From positions 1 to 34,578 of the forward strand of contig JAUIFX010000022.1 of NCBI GenBank assembly GCA_030429865.1: 34,578 nt of DNA, written 5' to 3'. Both the position numbers and the translations under genes were made by a program. The notes under the pieces were generated by a model. That model was not told the DNA's origin. It saw nothing but the letters and a program-made list of their open reading frames with translations, and made no database searches. The stretch is from Gammaproteobacteria bacterium. Its GTDB lineage: Bacteria; Pseudomonadota; Gammaproteobacteria; Ga0077536. This document shows, one piece after another, positions 3,390-34,381 of the stretch (position 1 is the first letter of the stretch; each line of letters starts with the position of its first letter).

Positions 3390-5237
3390 TCAGCGCTCGT
3401 CGAGCAGCGGCGCGAGGCGCGACAACTCGGCGTAAAGGCGCGTCGCCGTCGCCAGCTTGGCCTCGAACTGTTCGCGCGCCTCGCGCAATTGTGACTGGCG
3501 GCGCGAGACGGTATTGGCAAAGGCCATCAGCTTCTTGTAGTTCGCGCGCAGCACCTGCTCCTTGTGCTGGTAGTCGCGGGCGAGGGCGCGGCGCATACCC
3601 GCTTCGCGTTGCGCGATCTCCTGGCGGGTCAGCTCGCGCATGCGCCTGAGCTTGGCCTGGTACTGCTGTTCGAGGCGATGGCTGCGCACCGCGATGGCGC
3701 GCTCGAGTTCGGCGCGCACGCGGCGTTCCGTCTCGCGCATGACCACCGCGAGGGTCTCCTCGATGCTGAGCGCGGCGCCGAGATCCCGGGTCGCGCAGAG
3801 ATCCTCGTCGAGTTCCTCGCCCTCGCTCTCGCCGAGCCAGGGCGCGTGCCTCGGCGCGTCGTCGGCGACGAGGCGGTCGACGCTGCCGTCGAGCGCATCG
3901 TGCGCGTCGCTCAGCGTCGCGCGGATGTCGGCCAGCGTCTTGCCGGTCGGCGTGTCAGCGAACGTTTCGGTCGGGATCGGTTGGGTCATGGCCTGTTGAG
4001 CCTCCGCGTGCGTGTACAGGCCGGCGATACGGCCCAGGGTGGAATCCAGCGGGTCTTCCATGCGCTCCGCGTCGTCGTTACGAACCGGGGGGACGGCTGT
4101 TGCCTCGTGCTCGCTCCTGCCCGGCGGCAGGTAGACGACGCTGGCCTTGCCGGCATCGTCCTCGAGCAGGCTGTCGAGCGCCGGGTTGCGCGCGATCGCG
4201 GCGCGCACGCCACAGTCCAGGTAGACCGCGTCGAAACCGCGTTCGAGCAACAGGAAGGCGCCGATCGCGGCGTGCTCGCGATCGTCGCCGCAGACGATGT
4301 AGCGCCGTTCCCGTGGCAGGCGGCTGCCGTGCAGGCGCAGCAGGTGCAGCGGCATGTTGCGGCTGCCGAGCAGGGTGCGTGCCTCGTGTTCTTCCGGGTA
4401 GCGTACGTCCAGCCACTGCGCGCCCTCGGCGGCCGCCGCGCCGGCGGCATCGATATCGATGCCGCGTACGGTACGTTCGACGATCAGCCGCAGGAAATCC
4501 TCGCGGCCGAGCCGCATCAGCAGGCCGTCGGAAATCATGGTCACGGTCGCGTTGCGCGCGCGACCGGAAATCAGCGCTTCCTCGCCGAAGCTCGCGCCCG
4601 GTCCGAGATCGGCGAGATGAATCTGGCCGCGCCCGTTGGCGATCCGTCGCGAGACCTCGCAATAACCCTGCGCGACGACGTAGTAGTAATCGCCGCGGGA
4701 GCCCTGTTCGATGACGACTTCGTCCGCGCGCACCGGGCAGGGCGTCATGCGCGCGAAAATCTCCTGCATGCACGCTGCCGGCAGCGCGGCGAGCAGGGGC
4801 GACTGCAGCATGCGGACCATCCAGTCGGACGCGGCCGGCCCGGCCTCGTCGCCGACTTCCCGGACGCCGTCGCCGCGCTCCAACTCGTGCTGCTCGAGCA
4901 CCCGTTCGAGTACGCTGCGCGGTAGCGAGAGGATGGTCGCCGCCTGCGCGGCCCGCGCCGTGTAGCGCTTGCGCCCGGGCGGGTCGAACGGCTCCTCGGC
5001 ACCCTGCGGCGAGGCCGTCAGGGTCCGCGTGACGCGGCCCTGCCACCACAGTTCGACGCTGCCGTCGAGCAGGTAATGCGCGCGGCCGTCATCTTCGCCC
5101 TGGCGGTAGACGGGTTCGCCCTGCCGGTAACGGCGTTCGGTCGCGTGGGACAGGACTTCTTCACGTAGCGATGCGGGAAGACCCGCGAACGCGGCGCAGT
5201 GCGCCGCGCGCGCCGGCGTTTCGACTTCCAGGTTCAT
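3390..5237 (-). CDS. Two cNMP-binding domains, rhodanese-like domain and C-terminal coiled coil
   Basis: This 615-residue protein lacks a signal peptide or membrane segment. Residues about 12-110 look like a degenerate cyclic-nucleotide-binding (Crp-like) beta-roll. Residues about 145-255 form a clearer one with a phosphate-binding cassette FGEEALISGRARNATV. Residues about 270-345 are rhodanese-like (WLDVRYPEEHEA, then VCGDDREHAA with Cys316 at the active-loop position). An acidic linker is followed by a long Arg/Glu/Gln-rich coiled coil over the last 125 residues. No DNA-binding or kinase domain follows, so it is more likely a signalling or scaffold protein than a transcription factor. I chose ATG 5237 because an AAGGAT sequence lies eight bases upstream. 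In-frame ATGs at 5309 and 5369 would add 24 or 44 residues of low-complexity Arg/Ala sequence. Rhodanese activity and the bound nucleotide are unproven. Confidence 0.82.
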   Translation of the reverse strand: MNLEVETPARAAHCAAFAGLPASLREEVLSHATERRYRQGEPVYRQGEDDGRAHYLLDGSVELWWQGRVTRTLTASPQGAEEPFDPPGRKRYTARAAQAATILSLPRSVLERVLEQHELERGDGVREVGDEAGPAASDWMVRMLQSPLLAALPAACMQEIFARMTPCPVRADEVVIEQGSRGDYYYVVAQGYCEVSRRIANGRGQIHLADLGPGASFGEEALISGRARNATVTMISDGLLMRLGREDFLRLIVERTVRGIDIDAAGAAAAEGAQWLDVRYPEEHEARTLLGSRNMPLHLLRLHGSRLPRERRYIVCGDDREHAAIGAFLLLERGFDAVYLDCGVRAAIARNPALDSLLEDDAGKASVVYLPPGRSEHEATAVPPVRNDDAERMEDPLDSTLGRIAGLYTHAEAQQAMTQPIPTETFADTPTGKTLADIRATLSDAHDALDGSVDRLVADDAPRHAPWLGESEGEELDEDLCATRDLGAALSIEETLAVVMRETERRVRAELERAIAVRSHRLEQQYQAKLRRMRELTRQEIAQREAGMRRALARDYQHKEQVLRANYKKLMAFANTVSRRQSQLREAREQFEAKLATATRLYAELSRLAPLLDER

Positions 5238-18669: not shown

Positions 18670-18705
18670 GCGTCTGACACTGTTGCCGCAAGAGTGTCAG
18701 ACACC
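18670..18705. repeat. Degenerate REP palindrome upstream of MFS transporter
   Basis: GCGTCTGACACTGTTGC and its near-inverse GCAAGAGTGTCAGACACC are separated by a single base and differ by two mismatches. It belongs to the same family as the palindromes at 26857, 33686 and 34335. Its right arm overlaps the GTG start of the transporter gene, and it could also fold as an mRNA hairpin between the synthetase and transporter genes. Confidence 0.75.
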
Positions 18706-26782: not shown

Positions 26783-26856
26783 GAGCACAGGTTGCCACGG
26801 GCAAGGTTCATGGGGGCATTTTAACAAGCCGGCGATGCGGTCGCCCGGACGTCGAC

Positions 26857-27152
26857 GGTGTCTGACACTTTTGCTCGCGGGCGCGGTGGCCGCGGCACGA
26901 CGTGTGGTGAGCAAAAGTGTCAGGCACCCCGGCGCGGGCAGGCCGTGGTGCCGTGTCTGGACGTCGACGGTGTCTGATACTTCTGCTCGCCGGCGCGGCG
27001 ACCGCGGCACGACGTGTGGTGAGCAAAAGTGTCAGGCACCCCGGCGCGGGCAGGCCGTGGTGCCGTGTCTGGACGTCGACGGTGTCTGACACTTTTGCTC
27101 GCGGGCGCGGTGACCGCGGCATGAGGCGTGGTGAGCAAAAGTGTCAGACACC
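26857..27152. repeat. Tandem array of three REPIN-type palindromes (112-bp units)
   Basis: Three 72-bp palindromic elements lie at 26857-26928, 26969-27040 and 27081-27152. Each starts GGTGTCTGAYACTTYTGCTC and ends with the inverted GAGCAAAAGTGTCAGRCACC, around a GC-rich loop. Consecutive elements are separated by an identical 40-bp spacer (26929-26968 and 27041-27080), giving a 112-bp period. Together they fill most of the gene-free interval 26783-27231; the remainder shows no open frame I trust. The structure matches REPINs, paired inverted REP sequences mobilised in trans by RAYT transposases. No RAYT gene is in the window. Confidence 0.9.
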
Positions 27153-27231
27153 AACCGGGTGAAGAGGGCACGCGAGGCCTGCCGCCGCGGCGCTGCTACA
27201 CTGGCGCCACGGCGGCACGGAGAGCCAAGTC

Positions 27232-27847: not shown

Positions 27848-28075
27848 CTACTTCGCGCGCCGGATGAGGAAGCGGAAGACCTCGCCGTCCTGGCCGGATT
27901 CGACGAGTTCGTGGCCGGTGGTACGGCAGAACGCCTGGAAATCGGCGTCGGCAGCGGGATCCGTGGCGAGGATTTCTATGGTGCCGCCGACCGGCACGTC
28001 CTTCATCGATTTCTTGGTCTTGAGGATCGGCAGCGGGCAGTTCAGGCCCTTCGTATCGAGTGTCAGGTCGGCCAT
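27848..28075 (-). CDS. tusA: TusA-family sulfurtransferase
   Basis: This 75-residue cytosolic protein has the TusA fold signature LDTKGLNCPLPILKTKKSM, with persulfide-carrying Cys13 in the CPxP motif. The C-terminal half is the expected beta-alpha-beta (GTIEILATDPAADADFQAFCRTTGHELVE). In sulfur oxidisers, dedicated TusA proteins receive sulfane sulfur from rhodaneses or DsrE-type proteins and pass it to the Dsr or sHdr machinery. Its position divergent from the lipS1-lipT-lipS2-slpl(AB) operon, with a shared 176-base regulatory gap, argues for the sulfur-oxidation role rather than tRNA thiolation. ATG 28075 has GGGAG eight bases upstream. Extra N-terminal residues back to 28210 would be implausible. 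Confidence 0.93.
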   Translation of the reverse strand: MADLTLDTKGLNCPLPILKTKKSMKDVPVGGTIEILATDPAADADFQAFCRTTGHELVESGQDGEVFRFLIRRAK

Positions 28076-28164
28076 CGGGTTTCTCCCTGGATGGCCCGCG
28101 GGGCGGGCGCGGGCGGTTGCGGATGCGCGCATCATAGCCCAATCCGTCGCCTTATGAAGAATGG

Positions 28165-28199
28165 ATATAACCATATAACCAATTAGCATATATGCTGAC
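28165..28199. promoter_or_regulatory. AT-rich operator/promoter block between tusA and lipS1
   Basis: ATATAACC occurs twice in direct tandem (28165-28172, 28173-28180), followed after seven bases by ATATATGCTGAC (28188-28199); AGCATATATGCT inside it is a perfect 12-base palindrome. The downstream ATATAACC-N7-ATATATGCTGAC half recurs with the same spacing at 34486-34512. It ends 52 bases before the lipS1 start and may also serve tusA. It probably contains promoter and regulator-binding elements; the regulator is unknown, though ArsR-type repressors control sHdr genes elsewhere. Confidence 0.6.
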
Positions 28200-28251
28200 G
28201 GGGTCGGCACGTGAGCCGGCCTTGCGCACGGAACGAGGGGAACGCAGCGGC

Positions 28252-29298
28252 ATGCATGCAGTGAACGAGAGCCTGGACTGGGCGGCGCGTCTCGCGCTCA
28301 TCGAAGAACTCGAGGATGCCGAACTCGATACCGGCCTCATCGCGCGCCTCGAGCGGCGCGCCGCGCAGGTCGTGCCGCGCCCGCTGCGCTTCTCCACGCC
28401 GACCTTCAAGAGCTACGGCTCGAGCGAACTCAAGGGCTGCTCGAAGATGAGCTTCCCGGCTTTCTCGATCACCGGCGGCGCCTGCGCGCTCGACTGCGAC
28501 CACTGCCACGCGAAGATCCTCGAACCGATGATCCCGGCTACGCGGCCGGAGATTCTCGATGCGGAAGTACGCCGGCTCGTCGCCGAGCAGGACCTGCAGG
28601 GCTTCCTGCTCTCGGGCGGCTCGAACCGCAGGAACGAAATCAAGTACGAGCGTTACTGGCCGGTCGTCGAGGGGCTCAAGCGCGACTTCCCGCACCTGCG
28701 CGTCGCCGTGCACTCGGCCCTGATCGACGCCCCACGCGCGCGGCGCATGGCCGACGCCGGCGTCGACACCGCGATGCTCGACATCATCGGCGCACCCGAG
28801 ACCATCCGCGAGGTCTATCACCTCGAGCGGCCGGTGGACGATTTCGAAGCGTCGCTCGCCGCGCTGTGCGCGACCGGTATGGAAGTCGTGCCGCACATCG
28901 TCATCGGCCTGCACTACGGCGCGATCCGCGGCGAGCCCAACGCGCTCGACATCTGCGCACGTCACGACATCCACGCGCTCGTGCTGGTCGTCATCATGCC
29001 GTTCTACGCGGCGCCGGGCACGTTTGCCACGCCGAGCCCGGCCGCGGTCGGCGAGGTTTTCCTCGCCGCGCGCGAACGCCTGCCCGACCGCGAAGTGCTG
29101 CTCGGCTGCGCGCGCCCGCCCGGCATGCACAAGCGCGTGACCGATACCTACGCGGTGCTCGCCGGCCTCGACGGTATCGCCTTCCCGGCCGACGGCACCG
29201 TCGCCGCGGCGCGCGCCATCGGCCGTCCCTGCCACCAGGAACACGCCTGCTGCTCGCTCAAGCTCGCGCAGGCGCGGCGGCGCATCGAGGTCGCCTGA
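28252..29298 (+). CDS. lipS1: Radical SAM lipoyl synthase component LipS1
   Basis: This 348-residue radical SAM enzyme carries the 4Fe-4S motif CALDCDHC (Cys78, Cys82, Cys85), followed by GFLLSGGSNRRNEIKYERY and LDIIGAPETIREVYHL. Extra cysteines, Cys63 (ELKGCSK) and the tail CHQEHACC (Cys327, Cys333, Cys334), could ligate a second cluster that donates sulfur. LipS1 and LipS2 are a two-protein replacement for LipA and insert the two sulfur atoms into octanoyl groups on lipoyl domains. Gene order lipS1-lipT-lipS2-slpl(AB) next to tusA supports the assignment; S1 versus S2 naming is by gene order and tentative. ATG 28252 follows GAGGGGAA; upstream residues back to 28192 look non-coding. Confidence 0.82.
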   Translation: MHAVNESLDWAARLALIEELEDAELDTGLIARLERRAAQVVPRPLRFSTPTFKSYGSSELKGCSKMSFPAFSITGGACALDCDHCHAKILEPMIPATRPEILDAEVRRLVAEQDLQGFLLSGGSNRRNEIKYERYWPVVEGLKRDFPHLRVAVHSALIDAPRARRMADAGVDTAMLDIIGAPETIREVYHLERPVDDFEASLAALCATGMEVVPHIVIGLHYGAIRGEPNALDICARHDIHALVLVVIMPFYAAPGTFATPSPAAVGEVFLAARERLPDREVLLGCARPPGMHKRVTDTYAVLAGLDGIAFPADGTVAAARAIGRPCHQEHACCSLKLAQARRRIEVA

Positions 29299-29355
29299 GC
29301 GCGTGGCGATGCGCTTGCCAGCGGCGTCGCGCGGCGCACCACGGAAGGTGCGTCG

Positions 29356-30462
29356 ATGACGCGCGGGGTCGATGTCATCGTGCTCGGTCTCGGCCCGGCC
29401 GGGGCGAGCGCCGCGGCCGCCGCGGCAGCGTCCGGCGCCAGCGTGCTCGCGTTCGAGCGCAAGGCGGTTGCCGGCCACCCGGTACAGTGCGCGGAGCTCG
29501 TGCCGGGACTGATCGGTCAGGACGTCGCCGCTTTCGAGGACGCGCGCAGCCAGTCGGTGCGGCGCATGACGACGACCGTCGCGGCCGAGCCGCCCGACGA
29601 GACCGCGCCGTTCCCGGGGCACATGATCGACCGCGCGCGCTTCGACGCGGCGCTCGTCGAGGACGCGCGCCGCGCCGGCGCCGACTGCCGTCTCGCCACG
29701 CGGGTCGCCGCGGTCGACCCGGCGGGCGCGCTGACCACGGCCGACGGCGCGCGCTTCCGCGCACGCGTGCTGATCGGCGCTGACGGTCCGTTGTCGCGCC
29801 TCGGGCGCGCGCTCGGCGCGGTCAATACCGCGCTGGTGCATGCGCGCCAGCTGAGCGTCGTGCTGCGCACGGCCAGCGACGCGACGGACATCTTCCTGAG
29901 CGCCGACTATCCCGGCGGTTACGGTTGGCTGTTCCCGAAAGGGCGCCGCGGCCACGTCGGTATCGGCGTCGATGCCGCGCACCGTGCGCGCCTGCCGGCC
30001 CTGCTCGAGAGCCTGCTCGACCAACTCGTCGCCGCCGGGCGCATCGAGGCGCCTGCTGCCGCCGCGCGGGCCACGCTGACCGGCGGCCTGATCCCGGTCG
30101 GCGGACGGCTGCCGGCCGCGCATCCGCGCGGCGCGGTGCTGAACCTGCTCGCCGGCGACGCCGCCGGCCTCGCCAACCCGATCACCGGCGCCGGCATCCA
30201 CGCCGCGCTCGTCTCCGGGCGTCTCGCCGGCGAAGCGGCGGCGGCCTGGCTCGCCGGTGACGCCGCGGCCGGCGCGGACTACGAGGAAGAACTCGACGAC
30301 ACTTTCGGCGCCGCTCTCGGGCGCGCGCTTGCACGGCGCGCCACGCTCGCCGCCATCGCTGCCCGCGGCGCGCCGACGCCGGCCGAGCAGCGCGCCGCCT
30401 GGATTGCCTACCCGGCCTACTGGGCGCCAACCACGACCTTCTCCGAGGGAGCCTACGCATGA
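29356..30462 (+). CDS. lipT: FAD-dependent LipT (geranylgeranyl-reductase-like flavoprotein)
   Basis: This 368-residue protein is an FAD-binding oxidoreductase of the geranylgeranyl reductase type. It has an N-terminal dinucleotide fold VIVLGLGPAGASAA (GxGxxG, residues 11-16), RVLIGADGPLSRLGRALG and the second FAD motif NLLAGDAAGLANPITGAGIHAAL. There is no quinone- or membrane-anchoring segment. In sHdr-type sulfur oxidisers lipT always sits with lipS1/lipS2 and is thought to supply electrons for the radical SAM steps. It begins 57 bases after lipS1, and its stop overlaps the lipS2 start by four bases (ATGA), so LipT and LipS2 are translationally coupled. Confidence 0.85.
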   Translation: MTRGVDVIVLGLGPAGASAAAAAAASGASVLAFERKAVAGHPVQCAELVPGLIGQDVAAFEDARSQSVRRMTTTVAAEPPDETAPFPGHMIDRARFDAALVEDARRAGADCRLATRVAAVDPAGALTTADGARFRARVLIGADGPLSRLGRALGAVNTALVHARQLSVVLRTASDATDIFLSADYPGGYGWLFPKGRRGHVGIGVDAAHRARLPALLESLLDQLVAAGRIEAPAAAARATLTGGLIPVGGRLPAAHPRGAVLNLLAGDAAGLANPITGAGIHAALVSGRLAGEAAAAWLAGDAAAGADYEEELDDTFGAALGRALARRATLAAIAARGAPTPAEQRAAWIAYPAYWAPTTTFSEGAYA

Positions 30463-31751
30463 GTTGTTTCGACCGCGAAGGGGCAGCGCCCGACGCCACC
30501 ACGCCGAGCGCGATGAACACGTTCGCGCAGATGACGCCGCGCGCACCGGGCCGGACGCCGCGCGAGCTGCGCAACGGTGGACGCGTCAAGGCCGGCGGCA
30601 GCGCGCCCAGCGGCGTCTACCTGCCGAACAACAACATCCTCACGCCGCAGATGCGCTCGCCGGAATACGTGCAGCTCTCGACCGCCGCCGCGATCACGCT
30701 CGGCATCATGCGCGGCAACATGTATCGCTGCGCGTGCACGCGTTGCCTCAACCTGTTGCTGACCTACCCCGAGGGATGCCGCGCGAACTGCGCGTACTGC
30801 GGGCTCGCGCGTCACCGCGAGGCCGAGCGCGACTACGCCGATCGCAACTTCATCCGCGTCGACTGGCCGGCCGTGCCGATCGACGACATCGTCGACATCG
30901 TCGCGCGCGATCCGCAGGCGAGTCCGTTCCATCGCATGTGCATCTCGATGATCACCCATCCGCGCTCGGACGACGACACGCTCACGGTACTGAAGCGCTG
31001 GACCGATCGCATCGACCCCGCCGCCATTCCGGTGTCCATCCTGTCCAACCCGACGACCATGACGCGCGCCGACGTCGAGCGCCTGCACGAACTCGGCGCC
31101 GACATCTTCACCGTCGCGCTCGATGCCGCGACGCCGGCCTTGTTCGAGCGCACGCGCGGCAAGGGTGTGCAATCGCCGCACCGCTGGGACAAGTACTGGG
31201 AAGTGCTGATGGACGCGCGCGACGTGTTCGGTCCACAGAAGTTCGGCGCGCACATCATCGTCGGCATGGGCGAGAGCGAACGCGAGGTGCTGGAGCTCAT
31301 CCAGCGCATCGTCGATCTCGGCGGTCACAGCCACATGTTCTGTTTCTTCCCCGAGCGTGGCTCGCTGATGGACCACCTGCCGGCGACGCCGCGCGACCAG
31401 TGGCGCCGCGTGCAGCTCGCACGCTACCTCATCGATTACCGCGGCGTGCGTGTCGACCACATGCGGTTCGACGGCGACGGCCGCCTGGTCGATTTCGGTA
31501 TTCCGGCGGGCGAGCTCGACGACGTCATCGACGCGGGTGTCGCGTTCCGTACTTCGGGCTGCCCCGGCAAGTTCGCCGAAGACGTCTCGGCCTGCGATCG
31601 TCCCTACGGCGATTCACCGCCCTCCGACATCGCGAGCTACCCGTTCCAGCCGGTCGCGGTGGACCTCAGGAAGATCCGCGCCCAGCTCGGCCGCGCACGG
31701 CCGGGCGAGACCTACGAAGAGGGCGAGGACATCGAGCAGTTCGCCGGCTGA
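30459..31751 (+). CDS. lipS2: Radical SAM lipoyl synthase component LipS2
   Basis: This 430-residue radical SAM enzyme carries CRANCAYC (Cys107, Cys111, Cys114) for the SAM-binding 4Fe-4S cluster. Just upstream, YRCACTRC gives Cys91, Cys93 and Cys96, well placed to bind an auxiliary cluster, in the way LipA uses an N-terminal Cys triad for its sacrificial sulfur-donating cluster. Later SGCPGKFAEDVSACDRPYGDS adds further conserved-looking cysteines. GMGESEREVLELI is a typical mid-barrel segment. The proposed reaction is one of two sulfur insertions into an octanoylated carrier, probably LbpA. It starts within the lipT stop. It ends 120 bases before the ligase gene. Confidence 0.83.
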   Translation: MSCFDREGAAPDATTPSAMNTFAQMTPRAPGRTPRELRNGGRVKAGGSAPSGVYLPNNNILTPQMRSPEYVQLSTAAAITLGIMRGNMYRCACTRCLNLLLTYPEGCRANCAYCGLARHREAERDYADRNFIRVDWPAVPIDDIVDIVARDPQASPFHRMCISMITHPRSDDDTLTVLKRWTDRIDPAAIPVSILSNPTTMTRADVERLHELGADIFTVALDAATPALFERTRGKGVQSPHRWDKYWEVLMDARDVFGPQKFGAHIIVGMGESEREVLELIQRIVDLGGHSHMFCFFPERGSLMDHLPATPRDQWRRVQLARYLIDYRGVRVDHMRFDGDGRLVDFGIPAGELDDVIDAGVAFRTSGCPGKFAEDVSACDRPYGDSPPSDIASYPFQPVAVDLRKIRAQLGRARPGETYEEGEDIEQFAG

Positions 31752-31871
31752 GCGCGTGAACCGCCCGGGGTGCCTGCCCGCGCTCGGCGCGCGGCCGCGC
31801 AGCGCCGCCGCCGGCGAGGCGCTCGCCGTGGCCCGTGTCCCCGTGCCGGCGGGTCAGCGGGGCTGCCGCGG

Positions 31872-32942
31872 ATGAACGCCCGCTGCTTCCGCCTGCTCGA
31901 CACCGGCGTGCACGACGGCCGCTGGAACGTGGCGCTCGACCAGGTGCTGATCGACGCGCACCGCGCGGGCGAGGCGCCCGACACGCTGCGCTTCCTGCGC
32001 TTCAGCCCGAGCGCCCTGATCGGGCGCCATCAGGATCTCTCGCGCGAGGTCGACCTCGACTACTGCACGCGGCACGGCATCGACGTCGGCCGCCGCATCA
32101 CCGGCGGCGGCGCGCTGTATCTCGACGAGAACCAGCTCGGCTGGGAGCTGATCTGTGCACGCAGCGCGCTCGGCGGCGGCAGCTTGGGCGACATCGCCAC
32201 GCGCCTGTGCACGGCGGCGGCCGACGGCCTGTCACGGCTCGGCGTGCCGGCGCGTTTCCGTCCGCGCAACGACATCGAGGTCGACGGCCGCAAGATCGGC
32301 GGCACCGGCGGCTTCTTCGATGGCGACACGCTGTTCTACCAGGGCACCGTGCTGATCGACCTCGACCCCGGCGTCATGTTCGAGGTCCTGCGCGTGCCGG
32401 GCGCGAAGCGCGCGCGGCATGCCGGCGCGGCACCGGCCACGCGCGTGACCTCGTTGACGGAGGTCTGCGGCGGACGCCCGCCGGCGCTGCTCGCGGTGTG
32501 CGCGGCACTGACGGCGGGTTTCGCGGACGGTCTCGGTATCGAGGTCGCGGAGGCTGGCTTGAGCGCCGCCGAGGAACAGGCCGTCGCCGCGAGTTACCGC
32601 GATGACATCGGCAGCGCCGCGTTCGTTCACGACATCGATCATCCCGGGCGCGGTGACGGCATCCGCAGCCTCACGCGCGATACGCCGGGCGGGCTCGTCG
32701 AAGTGCATCTCAAGCTCGCTGCCGGCGGCACGCCGCGCATCGCGAGCGTCATCCTCAGCGGCGATTTCTTCGTCACGCCACCGCGCGTCGTCTACGACCT
32801 CGAGTGCGCGCTGCGCGACACCAAGGTCGCCGACGTCGAACGCAACGTCGCCACGTTTCTCGACCAGGCCGGCATCGAGACGCTCTCGCTCGCGCCGGGC
32901 GACCTGGCCGCGGCCATTCGCGCCGCGGCGGAGGCCGGCTGA
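31872..32942 (+). CDS. slpl(AB): Lipoate:protein ligase sLpl(AB)
   Basis: This 356-residue ligase has the LplA/LipB fold with RRITGGGALYLDENQLGWELI (residues 74-94, substrate/AMP-binding loop), RNDIEVDGRKIGGTGGFF with catalytic Lys141 and YQGTVLIDLD. The C-terminal part (about 255-356: EVHLKLAAGGTPRIASVILSGDFF) corresponds to the LplB-like accessory domain, so A and B functions are fused. It activates lipoate or octanoate to the AMP ester and attaches it to the carrier lysine. In this pathway the carrier is the lipoate-binding protein LbpA rather than the 2-oxoacid dehydrogenases. ATG 31872 has only weak GCGGGG upstream; GTG 31770 would add 34 Arg-rich residues. The gap of 120 bases to lipS2 could hold a secondary promoter. 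Confidence 0.85.
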   Translation: MNARCFRLLDTGVHDGRWNVALDQVLIDAHRAGEAPDTLRFLRFSPSALIGRHQDLSREVDLDYCTRHGIDVGRRITGGGALYLDENQLGWELICARSALGGGSLGDIATRLCTAAADGLSRLGVPARFRPRNDIEVDGRKIGGTGGFFDGDTLFYQGTVLIDLDPGVMFEVLRVPGAKRARHAGAAPATRVTSLTEVCGGRPPALLAVCAALTAGFADGLGIEVAEAGLSAAEEQAVAASYRDDIGSAAFVHDIDHPGRGDGIRSLTRDTPGGLVEVHLKLAAGGTPRIASVILSGDFFVTPPRVVYDLECALRDTKVADVERNVATFLDQAGIETLSLAPGDLAAAIRAAAEAG

Positions 32943-33661
32943 TGGACTACCTCGCGCACCTCACCGTCATCCAGCACACCTCTGCCGGCTACCTCGGGCT
33001 GATCGAGGATCACCTCGAAGGCCGCAAGATCCGTTTCACCTATCACCGCCCGTTCACCGAGCGCGGCGGCATACCGACGCTCGAATCGATCGGCGACGGC
33101 CTCGTGCTGCTCGGCGGCGGACCGTGGGGCTCGGCCGGTCCGCGCAACGTGCCGACGCTGGTGCGCGAGGTCGAACTCGCCCATGCCTGTCTCGAGCGCG
33201 GCATCCCGCTGCTCGGCATCGAGCTCGGCGCGCAGATCCTCGCCCTCGCTGCCGGCGGCCGCAGCCACGCCACGCCGCTCGCGCTGACCGTCGAGGAGGC
33301 TTGCCGCGTCGACGACGACGCGCTGAACGGCTACCTGCCCGAGCGTTTCGTCTCCATCGCCTACGGCCGCGACCGCTTCGAGCTGCCGCCCCATGCCCGC
33401 GTGCTCGCGCGCGGCGCCGACGACGAACCGGCCGTGTTCCAGCTCGGCGACAAGGCCTTCGGCTTCCGCGGCCACCCGGGCTTCAAGCCAGCCATCGCCG
33501 AGGATCTCGTGATGGAATTCGAAGAAGCGCCCGAGGACCCCGCACCGATGCTGGTGCAGGCCCGCGCCCAGGCACGGGCGGTGGAGCAAGCGCTCATCCC
33601 CATCATGACCGGCCTCGTGCAGCTCACCGGCTGGATGCAGCGCCGCGAACCCGCCCCGTAG
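32942..33661 (+). CDS. Class I glutamine-amidotransferase-fold protein with Cys-to-Glu substitution
   Basis: This 239-residue protein shares its first base with the last base of the ligase stop, so it is translationally coupled. The GATase1 fold is visible: LVLLGGGPWGSAGPR, the nucleophile-elbow strand PLLGIELGAQILALAAGG and GFRGHPGFKP (His178). In true amidotransferases the elbow reads GICLGAQ, but here the codon at 33221-33223 is GAG, so Glu94 replaces the nucleophilic Cys. Glutaminase activity should be lost. Class I amidotransferase-like genes are known companions of sHdr/lip clusters, but their role has not been established. A substrate-binding, regulatory or chaperone role toward the ligase is a possible inference. 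Confidence 0.82.
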   Translation: MDYLAHLTVIQHTSAGYLGLIEDHLEGRKIRFTYHRPFTERGGIPTLESIGDGLVLLGGGPWGSAGPRNVPTLVREVELAHACLERGIPLLGIELGAQILALAAGGRSHATPLALTVEEACRVDDDALNGYLPERFVSIAYGRDRFELPPHARVLARGADDEPAVFQLGDKAFGFRGHPGFKPAIAEDLVMEFEEAPEDPAPMLVQARAQARAVEQALIPIMTGLVQLTGWMQRREPAP

Positions 33662-33685: not shown

Positions 33686-33732
33686 GGTGTCTGACACTTT
33701 TGCGCAAAATTTGAGCAAAAGTGTCAGACACC
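33686..33732. repeat. Compact REPIN palindrome
   Basis: Perfect 18-base inverted arms GGTGTCTGACACTTTTGC / GCAAAAGTGTCAGACACC flank an 11-base core containing AAAATTT. It belongs to the same family as the array at 26857-27152 and lies between the amidotransferase-like gene and the VOC gene, where it may also act as a terminator. An in-frame GTG inside the right arm is not the VOC start. Confidence 0.88.
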
Positions 33733-33840: not shown

Positions 33841-34302
33841 ATGATTCACGGTATCAACCACGTCGCCATCTCGACGGCGGACATCGAGCGCCTGAGCGCG
33901 TTCTACATCGACCTGCTCGGCTTCGAGGAGGTGTTCCGGCTCAACTGGGAGGTGGGGCACGAGCAGCTCGACAACATCACCGGCCTCGAGGACTCGTCCG
34001 CGCGGCTCATTATGTTGCGCTGCGGGAATGCCTGCCTGGAACTGTTCGAATACCAGACGCCGCCGCCGCGGGCCGGCGATCCGGCGCGCCCGGTATGCGA
34101 TCACGGCATCACCCACCTGTGCCTGCAGGTCAGCGACATCGAGGCCGAGCACGCGCGGCTCGAAGCGGCCGGCATGCGTTTCCACTGTCCACCGCAGCCA
34201 CTCGGTGACATCCGCGCGACCTACGGCCGCGACCCGGATGGCAACGTCGTCGAACTGCTCGAAGTGCCGGCCGACAGCGCACTGCACGTGGTCGCGGCCT
34301 GA
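33841..34302 (+). CDS. VOC family protein (methylmalonyl-CoA epimerase/glyoxalase-like)
   Basis: This 153-residue protein has two VOC modules. Likely metal ligands are His7 (GINHVAIS), Glu70 (CLELFEY), His92 (GITHLCLQV) and Glu138 (NVVELLE), a pattern shared with glyoxalase I and methylmalonyl-CoA epimerase. The substrate is unknown. ATG 33841 has an excellent GGGGAGAGAGG ribosome-binding region. In-frame GTG 33721 lies in the palindrome and would add 40 unlike residues. The gene is bracketed by two REP palindromes (33686-33732 and 34335-34381), so it is probably a separate transcription unit from the lip operon. Confidence 0.88.
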   Translation: MIHGINHVAISTADIERLSAFYIDLLGFEEVFRLNWEVGHEQLDNITGLEDSSARLIMLRCGNACLELFEYQTPPPRAGDPARPVCDHGITHLCLQVSDIEAEHARLEAAGMRFHCPPQPLGDIRATYGRDPDGNVVELLEVPADSALHVVAA

Positions 34303-34334: not shown

Positions 34335-34381
34335 AGTGTCTGACACTTTTGCTCAAAATTTAAGCAAAAGTGTCAGACACC
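34335..34381. repeat. Compact REPIN palindrome
   Basis: AGTGTCTGACACTTTTGCT and its inverse AGCAAAAGTGTCAGACACC (one mismatch at the outer base) flank CAAAATTTA. It closely resembles the copy at 33686-33732 and lies 32 bases after the VOC stop. Confidence 0.87.

Follow-up and report, generated by a model that had tools for sequence, protein, structure and literature searches.

LipX, an amidotransferase-fold protein without a catalytic nucleophile, accompanies the sHdr system in Pseudomonadota

Introduction

The sHdr system is a main cytoplasmic route of sulfur oxidation, and the assembly of its parts and of its lipoylated carrier protein, LbpA, is still being worked out. One of the genes found with this machinery has already been named lipX, its product being described as a "putative glutamine amidotransferase" (PLoS Biol 2023; PMC10332631); the same protein appears as "GATase1" in an earlier account (eLife 2018; PMC6067878) and is counted among the lipoate-assembly enzymes in another (PMC11582611), in the sections of these papers considered here. 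Those sections make no mention of a missing nucleophile or of a link to sHdr that is independent of LipS1 and LipS2, and a literature search on pseudoenzyme glutamine amidotransferases (GATases) returned nothing.

The stretch of DNA analyzed here, called the window, is a contig of 34,578 nucleotides (JAUIFX010000022.1, assembly GCA_030429865.1) from a gammaproteobacterium of the lineage Ga0077536. In the lipX product encoded on it, the nucleophile elbow that should read GICLGAQ reads GIELGAQ, which raises the question of what an amidotransferase-like protein without its cysteine does beside a lipoate ligase. An interpretation based on the letters of the window alone (the sequence-only reading) saw a Cys-to-Glu exchange in a conserved pseudo-enzyme tied to lipoate attachment, with a regulatory, binding or chaperone function or a new chemistry using Glu. 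We examined these proposals across homologs, gene neighborhoods and genomes.

Materials and methods

Homologs were drawn from relatives of the window genome, from 80 named contigs, and from genome samples at the class and the phylum level. The class sample comprised 369 genomes, in which the sHdr-positive members span 13 families; the co-occurrence profile covers Pseudomonadota only. The tree contained 78 rows and was built with a quick method and SH-aLRT support. Neighborhoods of the sister family described below were read in loci L153-L164 excluding L160 and L161; the sister family was seen in sHdr-positive Gammaproteobacteria.

Results

The lipX gene and its protein

In the window, lipX directly follows slpl(AB), with lipS1, lipT and lipS2 upstream (positions 28192-33661; Table 1). 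As the sequence-only reading had noted, the ligase stop codon (TGA, 32940-32942) and the lipX start codon (ATG, 32942-32944) have one base in common. The encoded protein matches Pfam PF00117 (E 6.5e-7), a domain found in 54 of 62 members, and no NCBIfam model reaches its own cut-off for it. An AlphaFold prediction with 62 sequences (mean pLDDT 93.1, pTM 0.91) confidently assigns LipX a class I GATase fold. The solved structures nearest to the predicted model are 8khs (DnfC), 3m3p, SMU.1228c and 1o1y (TM1158), with Z scores of 23-26, and the fold resembles that of the TM1158/DnfC/SMU.1228c-type enzymes (1o1y, 8khs, 3l7n, 3m3p) over the full length (for 8khs, Z 25.8, 220 residues, rmsd 2.5). In the window, the proposed retention of the fold and of His178 is borne out.

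Table 1. Features of the window around lipX, with strand and the basis of each assignment
Feature	Position	Strand	Basis or remark
TusA-like sulfur carrier protein	27848-28210	-	Divergent from lip genes; resembles TusA-like genes of other sHdr/LbpA clusters
LipS1-type radical SAM lipoyl synthase	28192-29298	+	NCBIfam NF053742, 180.6 bits (cut-off 230, not reached); synteny
LipT-type FAD oxidoreductase	29356-30462	+	Pfam/NCBIfam matches; synteny
LipS2-type radical SAM lipoyl synthase	30459-31751	+	NCBIfam NF053743, 190 bits (cut-off 270, not reached); synteny
sLpl(AB) lipoate:protein ligase	31872-32942	+	PF21948; stop overlaps lipX start by one base
lipX, 239-aa catalytically incomplete class I glutamine amidotransferase homolog	32942-33661	+	PF00117; AlphaFold pLDDT 93; name from PMC10332631
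Codon GAG, Glu94	33221-33223	+	Nucleophile-elbow site: Cys in ordinary GATases, Gly in most LipX
His178-Pro179-Gly180 codons	33473-33481	+	Triad His present; Gly stands in for the triad acid, which is Glu in 97% of Cys-GATases
Glyoxalase/VOC-family gene	33841-34302	+	Between lipX and the expected dsrE3; flanked by two 46-bp palindromic repeat copies

The elbow GIELGAQ lies within PLLGIELGAQILA, and the GAG codon for Glu94 was confirmed. LipX-like proteins from other lip/shdr clusters share 52-63% identity with it over about 230 residues; no homolog was found on viral contigs or plasmids. The closest other genome is bin88, whose protein is 95% identical and has Glu94 encoded by GAA, and Glu occupies this position also in L128 (Lysobacterales) and in two more distant phylum genomes, L049 and L050. 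Between the window and bin88, dN/dS is 0.085 for LipX and 0.129 for sLpl; LipX is under strong purifying selection. Because the codons differ between the two genomes while dN/dS is this low, LipX is conserved and Glu94 is no error. Nothing was found in favor of a sequencing error or a one-off mutation in a normal GATase; this explanation has a negligible probability and is ruled out by the bin88 codon, the dN/dS value and the 91 Cys-less homologs described next.

Loss of the catalytic residues across the family

Among 91 aligned homologs, residue 94 is Gly in 85, Glu in six and Cys in none, whereas ordinary GATases aligned with them carry Cys at this site. The triad His is His in 79, Asn in 11 and Arg in one. 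Residue 180, overlooked in the sequence-only reading, is Gly in 88 of the 91, as against Glu in 97% of Cys-type GATases. By sequence, then, ordinary enzymes have Cys and His-x-Glu, while LipX has Gly or Glu, His or Asn, and Gly, and glutamine hydrolysis by the known Cys-His-Glu mechanism should be impossible for it. A homolog with intact Cys was sought in lip and shdr clusters and none was found there. The finding that the sequence-only reading had named as a refutation, an intact Cys in other lip clusters, therefore did not appear, and the view of LipX as a conserved pseudo-enzyme stands, but Glu is not the usual residue of the homologs.

In the tree, all Cys-less rows fall into one clade (53 rows, support 100), within which the Glu rows require at least three separate changes. 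Cys was lost a single time, at the root of a clade larger than LipX itself, and Glu is a derived state; in the window lineage, Glu94 came later, in a protein that was inactive by then. A family-wide exchange of Cys for Glu is not what the alignment describes, and a new chemistry using Glu is unlikely, since Gly is usual and Glu arose repeatedly.

Two further proteins deserve mention. At L040 (genome G234), an otherwise ordinary-looking GATase with the triad His-Glu present has Tyr in place of Cys (GIYLGAQ); here the nucleophile was lost independently of the LipX clade, to which this protein does not belong. L051 (genome G401) encodes a divergent Cys-less member with GIELGGQ beside hemL, and sHdrC1 is on another contig.

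A sister family and the residues it has in common with LipX

The Cys-less clade also contains a separate unnamed family (L005, L019-L038) with about 30% identity to LipX; its elbow residue is Gly, and Arg replaces the triad His. In most of the loci read, its gene adjoins that of a LysR-type regulator, with conserved TM2-domain-like and PerM-like neighbors, mostly away from lip and shdr genes. Among the residues that both families have in common, but do not share with Cys-type GATases, are E22, E26, R28, F32, Y34, R36, F38, P179, K182, E187, D188, M191, E192, P197 and M232. In LipX, the GGGPWG pocket motif, Gln98, Arg143 and Asp144 hardly vary; they are not kept in the sister family. LipX and its sister, alike in the lost Cys, in E22, R28, Y34, R36, K182, E187, D188 and E192 and in co-occurrence with sHdr, differ in overall sequence, in the triad His and in their neighbors; unlike the clade-specific invariant charged residues, the former active site is not common to them. 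Judged from the fold topology, the clade-specific residues would lie on the first helix together with the second strand, and on the helix that follows the triad His, where the charged ones may form a docking face.

Gene neighborhood

Among the 80 named loci, sLpl lies immediately upstream of LipX in 67 of the 79 that are informative, and dsrE3 immediately downstream in 62 of 77. Hyphomicrobium denitrificans LipX (Hden_0687), likened here by description and gene position, occupies the same place in the same kind of cluster, after slpl(AB) with a start/stop overlap and before dsrE3/shdr; in the portions of the literature considered it is an amidotransferase or lipoate-assembly enzyme, with no mention of a lost nucleophile. 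Because lipX sits at the lip/shdr junction, with exceptions such as nine loci in which it accompanies dsrE3-shdr away from sLpl and L160 (G714), where it is first in the shdr operon and the lip genes are on the opposite strand, linkage alone does not decide between the two gene sets. An apparent ligase-LipX fusion in L048 (a 610-aa open frame) was rejected, as it consists of two genes in different frames that merely overlap.

Co-occurrence with sHdr and with lipoylation genes

In the class sample, 23 genomes carry a member of the Cys-less clade and 21 carry sHdrC1; all 21 sHdrC1-positive genomes have both, and none has sHdrC1 alone (Fisher 3e-32 over 369 genomes, shared ancestry ignored). The two genomes with the clade and without sHdrC1, the window genome G000 and G369 (75% complete), are attributed to assembly gaps. 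Neither sHdrC1 nor LbpA was found in G000; since the window stops at the point at which dsrE3B starts in bin88, this assembly probably lacks the shdr operon. The phylum sample gives the same picture, with the clade and sHdrC1 together in six of six cases. In many of the sHdr genomes of the class sample the clade member is not linked to sHdr, and in G054 some 220 kb separate the two genes, which argues against operon hitch-hiking as the sole cause.

The lipoylation genes behave differently. LipS1 was detected in 26 genomes of the class sample, and LipX accompanies it in 19 of 19 with sHdrC1, as against one of seven without (G000; Fisher 3e-5, shared ancestry ignored). The six other genomes carry LbpA-LipS lipoylation genes, have no detectable sHdr, and lack LipX in every case; in them an LbpA-like gene adjoins LipS1, and GATase matches are of the Cys type only or absent. 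Within genus g165, G190 has sHdr, LipX and LipS1, and G300 LipS1 only. Conversely, the complete single-contig genome G140 has sHdr, two LbpA and a sister-type member of the clade, and LipS1 and LipS2 were not detected there; it is the only clean genome of this kind, as G225, considered as a second case, was rejected on finding LipS2 on the contig that carries its LipX. Across the Pseudomonadota samples, the LipX clade strictly accompanies sHdr and not the lipoylation genes. The tie to lipoate attachment as originally put forward is not supported, given that LipX is absent from all six lipoylation-only genomes and that the clade is present in all sHdr genomes tested, G140 included; the apparent tie is explained by the position of lipX, which at most loci lies where the lip and shdr genes meet.

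In LipX-negative genomes, the four clusters that were examined closely hold tusA, dsrE, lbpA, lipS1, sLpl and lipT, with lipS2 in three of the four stretches. Clusters ordered tusA-dsrE-lbpA-lipS1-sLpl-lipT(-lipS2) are seen at L198, L199, L200 and L204, in genomes without detectable sHdrC1.

Evolutionary rates were also compared over 44 loci. The partial correlation with LipX is highest for LipS1 (0.48), followed by DsrE3 (0.22), LipS2 (0.19), sHdrC1 (0.15) and sLpl (0.13), a peak that suits a role in lipoylation better than one in sHdr.

Discussion

Because Cys and the triad Glu are lost family-wide, all members stem from a single clade, selection is purifying, lipX is placed at the lip/shdr junction and the clade co-occurs with sHdr, we consider that LipX probably serves the sHdr system and the lipoylated carrier LbpA without catalysis, as an accessory, assembly or binding protein. 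Such a protein would keep the class I GATase fold without glutamine hydrolysis and could dock to sHdr or LbpA through a clade-specific charged face made up of E22, E26, R28, Y34, R36 and F38 together with K182, E187, D188 and E192. Its specific task might be to bind or hold LbpA during loading or during work with sHdr; this is a guess, prompted by the resemblance of the lipoyl-lysine amide of LbpA to the carboxamide bound by GATase pockets. A fuller version, which we put forward tentatively and hold to be rather doubtful, joins LipX and its LysR-adjacent sister into one pseudo-amidotransferase family that would be a universal, overlooked sHdr component in Pseudomonadota, its dead pocket and new charged face gripping either the sHdr complex or LbpA by its lipoyl-lysine arm.

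A comparable fate befell the GATase domain of CPS1, which lost its Cys and was retained for a structural or allosteric, non-catalytic role. The human CPS1 GATase-like domain (5dot, 6uel) has the same fold as LipX (Z about 17.6), but it is a fused domain, whereas LipX is a stand-alone protein of sulfur oxidizers.

The published view, in which LipX would be a dedicated LbpA lipoylation factor, acting on sLpl(AB) or LipS1/S2 as scaffold or regulator and needed only for those LbpA proteins that work for sHdr, keeps a modest share of the probability because rate covariation peaks at LipS1. It is also consistent with sLpl lying directly 5' in most loci, with the overlap of the ligase stop and the lipX start both in the window and, in the part of PMC10332631 considered, in H. 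denitrificans, and with the literature in the sections at hand, where LipX is grouped with lipoate-assembling enzymes (PMC11582611) and the operon is one of lipoate assembly (PMC10332631, PMC11582611). However, LipX is absent from the six genomes that have LbpA and lipoylation genes without sHdr, G140 has a clade member without detectable LipS1 or LipS2, and at nine loci LipX stays beside dsrE3-shdr, away from sLpl. A helper plasmid carrying lipS1-slpl(AB)-lipT-lipS2 and no lipX already gave LbpA a mercaptooctanoyl group in Escherichia coli, according to the relevant section of PMC10332631, which speaks against a need for LipX up to that stage only.

An enzyme working by another mechanism, through Glu94 or through His178, Arg143, Asp144 and Lys182, is improbable. 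Purifying selection and the near invariance of GGGPWG, Gln98, Arg143 and Asp144 in LipX would fit it, but residue 94 is nearly always Gly, His178 gives way to Asn in 11 of the 91 homologs and to Arg in the sister family, and the latter co-occurs with sHdr equally strictly without keeping Arg143, Asp144 or Gln98. We give similarly little credence to a ligand-sensing regulator of sulfur oxidation in which the dead pocket would bind a metabolite and signal to a partner. The conserved pocket residues of LipX and the LysR-type regulator adjoining the sister family in most loci point that way; in the loci read, however, LipX itself belongs to biosynthetic and catalytic operons without an adjacent regulator, so that the LysR link is the sister's and not its own, and there is no known ligand.

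Relative to the portions of the published accounts considered here, the family-wide absence of Cys, the Cys-less clade with its sister family and the co-occurrence with sHdr are new. What has been annotated as an amidotransferase of lipoate assembly appears instead to be a partner without catalytic function, found with sHdr even when the lipoylation genes vary, which shifts experiments from amidotransferase assays to interaction tests. LipX may also serve as a genome marker for sHdr, and it illustrates the hazard of annotation by fold alone.

Repeats flanking the glyoxalase-family gene

Downstream of lipX, a 46-bp palindromic repeat (GTGTCTGACACTTTTGC...GCAAAAGTGTCAGACACC) at positions 33687-33732 and 34336-34381 flanks the glyoxalase-family gene, and further copies of its core lie near 18694, 26858, 27082 and 27141. 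The lipX-glyoxalase/VOC arrangement is the same in bin88 (L073), including the flanking repeats, and the dsrE3B frame starts there at position 4259, just past the end of the aligned window. The repeat looks like part of a cassette or of an intergenic repeat family. At 26847-27182, the window also contains a 112-nt unit in three tandem copies (100, 96 and 75% identity) with the GTGTCTGACAC core of the 46-bp repeat.
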